A stretch of DNA of 64,000 nucleotides from an uncultured Pelagibacteraceae bacterium (GTDB lineage Bacteria > Pseudomonadota > Alphaproteobacteria > Pelagibacterales > Pelagibacteraceae), in contig CACJBQ010000001.1 in the NCBI GenBank assembly GCA_902591695.1, positions 44,129 to 108,128 of the forward strand, written 5' to 3'. The stretch's first letter is position 1. Each line of letters begins with the position of its first letter. Position numbers and translations under genes: made by a program. Positions 21,394 to 23,479 of the stretch are shown here, piece by piece. Below the pieces are notes generated by a model. That model ran no database searches, was not told the origin of the DNA, and saw only the letters and a program-made list of their open reading frames with translations.

Positions 21394-21440
21394 TGGTAGC
21401 GGGAAGTGGGATCGAACCACTGACCTCGGGCTTATGAGTC
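21394..21440 (-). pseudogene. 47-bp 3' fragment of a tRNA(CAT), displaced copy (att-like)
   Basis: Identical over 47 bp to 23403-23449, the 3' part (anticodon arm to CCA) of the intact tRNA; identity stops at 21441. Confidence 0.93.
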
Positions 21441-21550
21441 TATCGCCATGAACCCTACTCTACTTATCTAGAACAAATACTCCTGTAAATGCTCTCTCTC
21501 CTTTCTAGTGATATTGAATCAAATTAAAGAATCTTAGTCAAGAACCAATG

Positions 21551-21573
21551 TCATTGGAGCACTATTGGAGCAA
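21551..21573. repeat. 23-bp direct repeat, copy 1
   Basis: TCATTGGAGCACTATTGGAGCAA; contains tandem ATTGGAGCA units; identical at 23359-23381. Confidence 0.92.
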
Positions 21574-21649
21574 TAAAAATTCGAGTACTTTTGAAGTTTA
21601 TATCGTTTAAATCAATAAAGTTTAAAATTTATTTTAATAGGAGATAGAA

Positions 21650-21946
21650 ATGATTGATTTAAAAAAAAAAATTATAAAAGTTCTAATTACTTTGATTATA
21701 TCAACTACTTCATTTAGTGCATTAGCTCATGATGAGATTAATTTAAAAGGTAAATTTCAGAATATCGATGCTAATAATGATGAAACAATATCTTTAGAGG
21801 AGTTTAAAAATTTCGTACTAGAGAATAGAAGAATGAATAGATTAGAGAGAATATTTAATCGAATTGATAATAACTCTAATGGAGAAATAACAATCGAGGA
21901 ACTAGAATTATTTCAAAAAAAATTTAGAGAAAAGCAAAAATCTTAA
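21650..21946 (+). CDS. secreted/periplasmic EF-hand calcium-binding protein
   Basis: Signal peptide-like N-terminus; two EF loops DANNDETISLEE and DNNSNGEITIEE. Confidence 0.85.
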   Translation: MIDLKKKIIKVLITLIISTTSFSALAHDEINLKGKFQNIDANNDETISLEEFKNFVLENRRMNRLERIFNRIDNNSNGEITIEELELFQKKFREKQKS

Positions 21947-22022
21947 ATTTAATTAACAGATTTTGTTTAGATGTATTTATTAAATCTATTTAAATTATGG
22001 ATAATAATTTAAAAATATTATC

Positions 22023-22571
22023 ATGTCTTATGATTCAGAATCTGATTATATTTTGCTTAAAGAAATACAAAAAGGAAATCATTCTGCGTTTAGCAAACTT
22101 GTAAATATTTATACAACAAGATTTTATAGTATGGCTTATCGATATTTAAATAATCAACAGGATGCTGAAGACATAGTTCAAAAAGCATTTTTAAAATTGT
22201 GGAAAAACCCTTATTCTTGGTCACCAGGTAAAGCAAAATTTACTACATGGTTTTCACGTGTAATAATCAATTTATGCCTAGATCAGCTAAAAAAAAGAAA
22301 ACTAGTTAGCATATCTGAGAATTTTGAATTTATGGATCAATCAACACTTCAAATAGAAAAAATAATAAAGGAAGAAAGGAACATTTTAGTTCAAAAAGCT
22401 ATTCAACAACTTCCCACAAGACAAAAAACTGCTCTAATTCTTTGTTTCCTCGAAGGCTATTCAAACAAAGAAGTAGCAACTATTCTAGAAACAACTGAAA
22501 AAGCTGTACAATCATTATTGTTAAGGGCAAAAGATTTTTTAAAGAGACAAATAGATATTACAAAATTATGA
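22023..22571 (+). CDS. ECF-type RNA polymerase sigma factor
   Basis: Region 2 YRYLNNQQDAEDIVQKAFLKLWKNP and WFSRVIINLCLDQLKKRK; region 4 LPTRQKTALILCFLEGYSNKEVATILETTEKAVQSLLLRAKDFLK. Confidence 0.93.
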   Translation: MSYDSESDYILLKEIQKGNHSAFSKLVNIYTTRFYSMAYRYLNNQQDAEDIVQKAFLKLWKNPYSWSPGKAKFTTWFSRVIINLCLDQLKKRKLVSISENFEFMDQSTLQIEKIIKEERNILVQKAIQQLPTRQKTALILCFLEGYSNKEVATILETTEKAVQSLLLRAKDFLKRQIDITKL

Positions 22572-22584
22572 TAGAAAATTAAAT

Positions 22585-22917
22585 TTGATGCAAAACAAAA
22601 ATAATAAAAACATAGATGCAATACTTAACAAACTTCAAGTAAAGCCTCATAGTAAAGATCTGGAAAAAAACATTATATATAAAGCTAAACAAATGAAACA
22701 GGGCAAATCATTTGTTTTTAATATTAATTATTTAATTGAAAGTTTTTCAGACAATTTACTTTTGCCATCAGCACGTCTTAATGCAGCAATTATTCTTATA
22801 GTTGGTTTTTTTGGAGGCATTATTGTTTCTAATTTATCAATACAAAATGAACTGCAATTAATTTTCAATGATAATTTTATAACAGAATTATTTTTTGATG
22901 AGGATATATCTATATGA
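22585..22917 (+). CDS. putative single-TM anti-sigma-like protein
   Basis: 110 aa; cytoplasmic N-terminus then one TM (AAIILIVGFFGGIIVSN); follows the ECF gene. Confidence 0.55.
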   Translation: MMQNKNNKNIDAILNKLQVKPHSKDLEKNIIYKAKQMKQGKSFVFNINYLIESFSDNLLLPSARLNAAIILIVGFFGGIIVSNLSIQNELQLIFNDNFITELFFDEDISI

Positions 22918-23345
22918 ATTACACTAAATATTTCCTAACATTTTCTATAATTTTAAATTTAGTCTTAATTGGTTTTATTATTGGTAATAAATTTAATACT
23001 AATTTCTTAAAAAAAGATAAATTTACAAATAATAAAATTGTTAAATTAATTTCAAAAACAGAATTGACTGAAGATAAAAAAGAAGAATTTATAGAACGAA
23101 TTAAGAATTTAAAAATTTCAAAAAATCAAAAAAGAGAAGTTAGAAAATTGTGGCGAAATAAAATAAAGAAAATTATTGAGGCAGATGAATTCGATGAGGA
23201 CGCACTCAAGGTATTATTAGAGAAACGAGCTAGTATTTTTGCAGATAACCGAGGAGAAGCAATTGATATAATAATTGACTTGCTAAATACGCTTTCTAAA
23301 AAAGATCGTATAAGAATATCTAAATTAATTCTTAAAACAGATTGA
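22914..23345 (+). CDS. membrane-anchored periplasmic CnrX/Spy/CpxP-like sensor (heavy-metal-resistance family)
   Basis: N-terminal TM anchor, then an all-helical charged domain; overlaps the anti-sigma gene by 4 bp. Confidence 0.6.
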   Translation: MNYTKYFLTFSIILNLVLIGFIIGNKFNTNFLKKDKFTNNKIVKLISKTELTEDKKEEFIERIKNLKISKNQKREVRKLWRNKIKKIIEADEFDEDALKVLLEKRASIFADNRGEAIDIIIDLLNTLSKKDRIRISKLILKTD

Positions 23346-23358
23346 ACTTAACCAATTC

Positions 23359-23381
23359 TCATTGGAGCACTATTGGAGCAA
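23359..23381. repeat. 23-bp direct repeat, copy 2
   Basis: TCATTGGAGCACTATTGGAGCAA, identical to 21551-21573. Confidence 0.92.
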
Positions 23382-23402
23382 AATGATATCGATCGTCTAG
23401 AA

Positions 23403-23479
23403 TGGTAGCGGGAAGTGGGATCGAACCACTGACCTCGGGCTTATGAGTCCCGCGCTCTAACCAACTGAGCTACCCCGCC
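23403..23479 (-). tRNA. tRNA with CAT anticodon (probably elongator Met; Ile2 not excluded)
   Basis: GGCGGGGTAGCTCAGTTGGTTAGAGCGCGGGACTCATAAGCCCGAGGTCAGTGGTTCGATCCCACTTCCCGCTACCA folds as a cloverleaf with encoded CCA. Confidence 0.95.

Follow-up and report, generated by a model that had tools for sequence, protein, structure and literature searches.

An integrase-less cassette in a tRNA-Met gene of Pelagibacteraceae, probably mobilised by an integrase acting in trans

How does a segment of some 2 kb come to occupy a tRNA gene when it encodes no recombinase of its own? The question arises in a 64-kb stretch of contig CACJBQ010000001.1 from an uncultured Pelagibacteraceae (SAR11) bacterium (the window, in genome G000), where four small genes lie between an intact tRNA-Met gene and a detached copy of its 3′ part. 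A reading of the letters alone (the sequence-only reading) had seen in this layout the geometry of tRNA-targeted integration, left by either a satellite-like element mobilised in trans or a decayed one. Its description of the locus holds: the two 47-bp direct repeats are identical (start-to-start spacing 2009 bp), ARAGORN and Rfam agree on the intact tRNA-Met(CAT), which is the single tRNA called in the window, and the open-reading frame (ORF) list and profile searches gave four plus-strand genes and neither a recombinase nor an integrase remnant in the cassette interior (21441-23402). The repeat extends from the anticodon loop through the encoded CCA, the displaced copy lacking the 5′ 30 nt of the tRNA. 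In the whole window 32 different 20-mers recur in direct orientation, 28 from the 47-bp pair and four from a 23-bp repeat; as these two pairs explain all 32, chance is excluded as the source of the 47-bp duplication. The 23-bp repeat had been overlooked, and forms a second pair of termini inside the cassette, an identical block TCATTGGAGCACTATTGGAGCAA at 21551-21573 and 23359-23381 containing two ATTGGAGCA units with an 11-bp period. Paired ATTGGAGCA repeats thus stand at both cassette ends at fixed distances from the core, and without mismatch the paired pattern occurs in the window's genome at this cassette only. Helically phased repeats flanking a core are the arm-type site layout of lambda-type integrases. 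The G+C content of the cassette is 25.0%, against 30.1% for the window. We propose, with a probability of about 0.77, that 21394-23449 is a non-autonomous integrative cassette that would be integrated and excised by a helper integrase supplied in trans.

The sequence-only reading had suggested looking among relatives for an unoccupied site and for other cargo at the same site, and both were found. In two close relatives (G169, L054; G193, L055) the tRNA-Met gene is directly followed by the phosphoribosyltransferase (PRTase) gene, within a gene order common to all three genomes (IMPDH, PRTase, tRNA-Met, a 69-aa gene and a DAO/GcvT fusion), and in-silico removal of the cassette between its core copies yields the L054/L055 sequence across the tRNA with zero mismatches. 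Together with the exact core duplication, these empty sites support the integration geometry. An independent single-cell genome, AG-422-B22 (L062), has the same layout with a cassette 99.0% identical to that of the window. Beside the same neighbour genes the occupant varies: L062 holds the cassette with the sigma-factor gene described below, whilst insertions of 576 bp, 833 bp and 1757 bp are present in L152, L078 and L079.

A scan of GTDB for arm plus core returned 19 Pelagibacteraceae records with insertions, a search with the core added more, and in the contig scan 27 of 46 matches lay outside the Pelagibacteraceae and were set aside as presumed chance matches. After removal of two insertions seen twice, 33 closed insertions (576 bp to 10.8 kb, the window's included) were present at the same tRNA-Met core in Pelagibacteraceae, a single one of which contained a full integrase; likewise, one protein among the 89 cargo ORFs of distinct elements matched a PHROG integrase family. 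The cargo is mostly unrelated from one insertion to another, with a few sharing the same genes, and includes LysE exporters, an ArsR/ArsP-type permease pair, a tautomerase and hydrolases, as well as prepilins, trypsin-like proteases, and ABC and TRAP transporters. Despite this, the ends sort into few types. Those of the window's cassette belong to Type I, whose members have ~130 bp in common distally and ~40 bp on the tRNA side. The paired arm motif was found in 21 of the 26 proximal ends, taken as 80 bp, and in 24 of the 26 distal ends, taken as 200 bp; of random windows of 200 bp, 0.5% contain it. Among 399 genomes sampled evenly from the genus, the Type I distal end was present in 11 and an arm pair in 18, some of the latter at tRNA-Leu; both counts are lower bounds, as most of the genomes are incomplete and the patterns miss diverged copies. 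The window holds a single cassette, whilst tandem arrays occupy tRNA-Met in L088, L093, L095, L100 and G017.

Integrase-less cassettes have also moved recently between species, judging by cassettes 94–99% identical across species whose alignable flanks share 77–94%. The window and L062 cassettes (99.0% identity) are flanked by DNA of 87.2% and, on the PRTase side, 94.4% identity, and the DAO gene of L062 is 94.6–94.9% identical to those of the empty-site genomes, yet 88.2% to that of the window, despite the common cassette. Cassettes of G441 and G330 (L148 and L153) share 97.1% identity beside a flank sharing 77.3% over 7.4 kb; for G330 and G124 (L153 and L044) the values are 98.4% and 79.9%, and for L106 and L152 94.5% and 78–79%. 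Finally, L082.1 and L088.2 are 98.8% identical over 855 bp, with different genes beside them and flanks that are not alignable.

Where might the enzyme come from? In G017 (L040) a 5.1-kb element at tRNA-Met encodes a 326-aa tyrosine integrase directly behind the tRNA (PF00589, E=5e-23), and an integrase-less element of 10.8 kb lies next in tandem. At its distal end the integrase-bearing element, L040.1, matches the window's cassette at 120 of 135 bases (89%) and other Type I cassettes at 115–129 of 135, with the exception of L070.1 (95 of 135). Its tRNA-proximal arm, TGCGTCTCTGAGGCGTCAAT, recurs in three ArsR/permease cassettes, unchanged in G441 and G330 and with a single mismatch in G124. 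Several relatives of this integrase, at tRNA-Met or other tRNAs, have paired repeats between the tRNA part and the start codon, mostly with an 11-bp period (e.g. GGTCGCACTATGGTCGCA), and two integrases of the family have a weak match to PF14657 (Arm-DNA-bind_4) at the N terminus. With ends common to the helper and this arrangement of repeats before the integrase genes, the cassettes look like elements carrying cargo in the integrase's place. Integrases of the helper family were detected in 20 of the 399 genomes of the genus. The helper integrase scored below the cut-off of integron integrase models, and the cassette borders are tRNA cores. In AG-410-O14 a 58-aa N-terminal integrase fragment, the arm-binding part, adjoins the core (L171:7824-8000), and may have arisen by decay or else be a small arm-binding protein. 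Most genomes, including G000, have a single integrase-type gene, which encodes an Xer-like protein (27 of 30 near-complete genomes; L110:1453-2370), apparently with no XerC/XerD pair, and no arm-binding domain was found in this protein.

The sequence-only reading had thought integrative pelagiphages a plausible source of the enzyme. A phage does occupy this tRNA-Met in G124, where a 33.5-kb prophage of HTVC010P type adjoins, in tandem, an ArsR/permease cassette of 1.6 kb; its terminase shares 71% identity with pelagiphage HTVC028P and 59% with HTVC010P, and phages thus use the same site. The prophage integrase is however a distant one, and the G017 integrase is the better helper candidate. Named phages searched with the latter gave distant integrases only (best places 35% identity), and no relatives of it were found in IMG/VR. 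L060, the sole IMG/VR match to a looser search pattern, was rejected as unrelated GC-rich DNA with no core.

We suggest the following mechanism. The cassette has a complete attachment site, the 47-bp tRNA-Met core with paired 11-bp-period arms on both sides, and no integrase of its own. A lambda-type tyrosine integrase acting in trans would bind the arms and recombine the cassette core with the host tRNA-Met between anticodon and CCA, restoring the tRNA gene with the 3′ part brought by the cassette and displacing the old 3′ part to the far end. Crossover probably falls in the anticodon loop, because the block of identity at tRNA-Met starts there and a mirrored block at tRNA-Leu ends there. As the cassette lacks an integrase and none of the helper family is shown in G000, the enzyme would have to come from trans or from a tandem neighbour; an autonomous element whose ends match, the 5.1-kb one of G017 for instance, is the likely kind of helper. 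The same enzyme would be expected to excise cassettes as small circles (2009 bp here) and to stack them in tandem. At a second docking site, tRNA-Leu(UAA), it is the 5′ half of the tRNA that is duplicated exactly, over 42–45 bp that end within the anticodon loop; cargo with no integrase lies 5′ of the tRNA, and the paired arms are ACTGGAGCAAGACTGGAGCA.

Several observations weigh against a trans-mobilised cassette. No helper-family integrase was found in the window's genome, which is 68% complete, nor any integrase gene behind arms of the window's exact sequence (TGCTCCAAT twice). The arms of the G017 helper differ from those of the window, being TGCGTC-type on the tRNA side and mixed TGCTCC/CGCGTC at the far end. 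Neither a circle nor an attP junction came to light, although reads were not searched for one, and in IMG/VR the Type I distal end (34 bases), the Type I and II proximal arms and the core-plus-end junction all lack an exact match. Furthermore, homologous recombination could have spread cassettes that were already integrated. Taken as the sole process, with inserted cassettes moving together with their flanks by way of homology in the 47-bp core and the conserved ends, such recombination is unlikely and still the best placed of the alternatives: it is frequent in SAR11, and the PRTase side shared by the window and L062 is fairly similar, but the same cassettes also lie beside flanks of 77–80% identity or, in L082.1 and L088.2, beside different genes, and site-specific integration typically leaves what is seen here, an exactly duplicated core, paired arms and tandem stacking.

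Decay, in which an element lost its integrase by deletion and stayed as a fixed resident kept for its sigma operon, we regard as improbable. That decay does happen is suggested by the integrase in AG-410-O14, cut down to its first 58 aa, and the failure to find a helper in G000 would fit a stranded element. Against this, both paired-arm ends are kept in the window's cassette, the distal one 89% identical to the helper's, with no remnant of an integrase between them; 32 of the 33 insertions lack a full integrase whilst carrying unrelated cargo; and the cassette is 99% identical in a genome whose flanks are 87–94% identical. Both ends are conserved, and copies of a cassette in different species are 94–99% identical; of the two origins named in the sequence-only reading, the non-autonomous one is hence the better fit.

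A host Xer-type recombinase could in principle move the cassettes, as XerCD moves IMEX (integrative mobile elements exploiting Xer) at dif, and in most cassette-bearing genomes the Xer-like gene is the sole member of the integrase family; this we judge very improbable, given paired arms and a tRNA core in the cassettes, the lack of a detectable arm-binding domain in the Xer-like protein, and a distal end that also occurs in an integrase-bearing element. An assembly error or a second functional tRNA, for which nothing speaks beyond the repeat itself, is ruled out for practical purposes, because AG-422-B22 has the same layout and the copy without its 5′ 30 nt is not called as a tRNA.

The cargo of the window's cassette (Table 1) probably constitutes a sigma-factor switch. 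It comprises an extracytoplasmic function (ECF) sigma factor, two apparently membrane-associated proteins and a secreted EF-hand protein, for which candidate assignments to other NCBIfam families were discarded, as the scores fell far below cut-off and reflect the EF-hand motif only. We take the 109-aa protein to be a probable anti-sigma factor, since its gene adjoins the 3′ side of the sigma gene and it has one hydrophobic segment, and the 143-aa protein, which gave no family match above cut-off, to be the probable periplasmic sensor of the operon, since its gene overlaps the preceding one by 4 bp and it has an N-terminal hydrophobic segment. In a sample of 197 genomes across the Pelagibacteraceae, the window's own was the one with this ECF sigma factor, which the other 196 lack.

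Table 1 Coordinates of the window's cassette and of related features at other loci (L numbers).
Feature	Position	Strand	Remarks
attR core, displaced tRNA-Met 3′ part	21394..21440	-	exact copy of 23403-23449; empty-site tRNA end in L054/L055
Conserved distal end (attP arm side), ~130 bp	21441..21573	.	120/135 identical to L040.1; common to Type I cassettes
Distal paired arm repeats ATTGGAGCA	21553-21561 + 21564-21572	.	within conserved distal end
Secreted EF-hand protein, 98 aa	21650..21946	+	PF13499 E=1.6e-12
ECF sigma factor, 182 aa	22023..22571	+	PF04542 E=2.9e-19, PF08281 E=1.2e-15; TIGR02937 above cut-off
109-aa protein, one apparent membrane segment	22588..22917	+	directly behind sigma gene; no family match
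143-aa protein, apparently membrane-anchored	22914..23345	+	4-bp overlap with preceding gene; N-terminal hydrophobic segment
Conserved tRNA-proximal end	23359..23402	.	common to cassettes with unrelated cargo
Proximal paired arm repeats ATTGGAGCA	23361-23369 + 23372-23380		place and spacing as paired repeats before integrase genes
TCTAGAAT adjoining core	within 23359..23402		conserved tRNA-proximal end
attL core inside intact tRNA	23403..23449	-	exact 47-bp repeat
Intact tRNA-Met (CAT), 3′ part from cassette	23403..23479	-	ARAGORN, Rfam
Candidate helper integrase, 326 aa	L040:16653-17633	-	PF00589
G124 HTVC010P-type pelagiphage prophage	L044:3324-19001 + L163:1-16859		
tRNA-Leu(UAA) elements	L177:6202-9510, L178:6343-7830, L179:5364-6565		

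Elsewhere in the family, the first genes of several Type II cassettes (L079:5123, L091:6581, L092:2578, L095:3116, L096:2348 and L100:7302) begin with a near-identical signal peptide, MRKLIIFLVTGMLWCNVS, and then diverge, so that diverse proteins seem to take their secretion leader from the conserved cassette end. Leaders of the form MKKLLGIVVLG are found again in other cassettes. A 3.4-kb element in G026 (L041:1744-5097) has three arm pairs and two prepilin-like genes, a globin-like and a phosphatase-like gene, and is perhaps two fused cassettes. In G051 (L043:2000-4105) a glycosyltransferase-like gene separates two complete tRNA-Met copies, 2 kb apart; here the duplication takes in the whole tRNA and not a part. 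A reading of the family's cargo as defence systems was rejected, the PADLOC matches looking mostly generic (proteases, regulators, ATPases), and no defence system is claimed.

The cassettes recall several known systems. Judged as a tRNA-targeted element, the window's cassette shows the tRNA 3′-part repeat and the empty-site allele and lacks an integrase gene of its own; with neither an own integrase nor phage-hijacking genes in its cargo, it falls outside phage satellites of the phage-inducible chromosomal island (PICI) type. It resembles a cis-mobilizable element (CIME) in having attL and attR and neither recombinase nor transfer genes; mobilisation by a related element through common att sites may also apply, the distal end being shared with the integrase-bearing L040.1 and the two G017 elements lying in tandem. 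In Dehalococcoides, 15 ssrA islands without an integration module were proposed as CIMEs (PMC3146451), and these likewise have attL and attR flanks, no recombinase, and a tandem arrangement with recombinase-bearing elements; the enzyme there is, however, a serine recombinase, with accretion in cis as the supposed mode of mobilisation (PMC3146451). Many SAR11 cassettes, in contrast, are the sole occupant of the site, possess both arm sites and recur in different species, which suggests action in trans. The family as a whole, with tandem cassettes and tRNA-fragment repeats, fits the additive flexible genomic islands described in Ca. Actinomarinales (PMC7771536) and Ca. Methylopumilus (PMC10872708), where islands of fGI-2 (flexible genomic island 2) span 330 bp to 42 kb; those belong to different lineages, and the portions of the two papers drawn on here describe no attachment-arm structure or helper link. 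Tycheposons, as defined in the portions consulted of PMC10872708 and PMC12416821, are tRNA-linked cargo elements of 4–200 kb with tyrosine recombinases, also found in streamlined ocean bacteria and at tRNA genes including tRNA-Met. The definition given in PMC10872708, where the Methylophilaceae case has a recombinase, does not extend to the window's cassette of 2 kb with none. Integron gene cassettes too are minimal and non-autonomous, moved by a trans-acting tyrosine recombinase and stacked at one site; the SAR11 cassettes differ in having no integron integrase, double-stranded tRNA cores with arms in place of a folded attC, and commonly several genes each.

Tandem islands with repeats of tRNA or tmRNA fragments are thus already known from Actinomarinales, Methylopumilus and Dehalococcoides; new here are a SAR11 cassette family, its arms and the ends that it has in common with a helper, and evidence for the travel of integrase-less cassettes between species. 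More tentatively, and somewhat short of an even chance, SAR11 populations may share an integron-like system without its own integrase, in which cassettes of 0.6–3 kb with a tRNA core and paired arms cross species, dock at the anticodon loop of tRNA-Met (mirrored at tRNA-Leu), depend on rare helpers and, far from being islands in decay, are under selection as units in their own right.

SAR11 are among the most abundant ocean bacteria, have very small genomes and are thought to be poor in mobile elements. For the gain of niche genes in this group the locus offers a testable vehicle, a cassette that carries one gene or a few between defined ends and has a candidate helper, supported by empty and filled alleles in close relatives and by clear recent interspecies transfer; the window's cassette would import a whole ECF sigma-factor switch. 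This suggests that very streamlined bacteria trade small cassettes with borrowed machinery.
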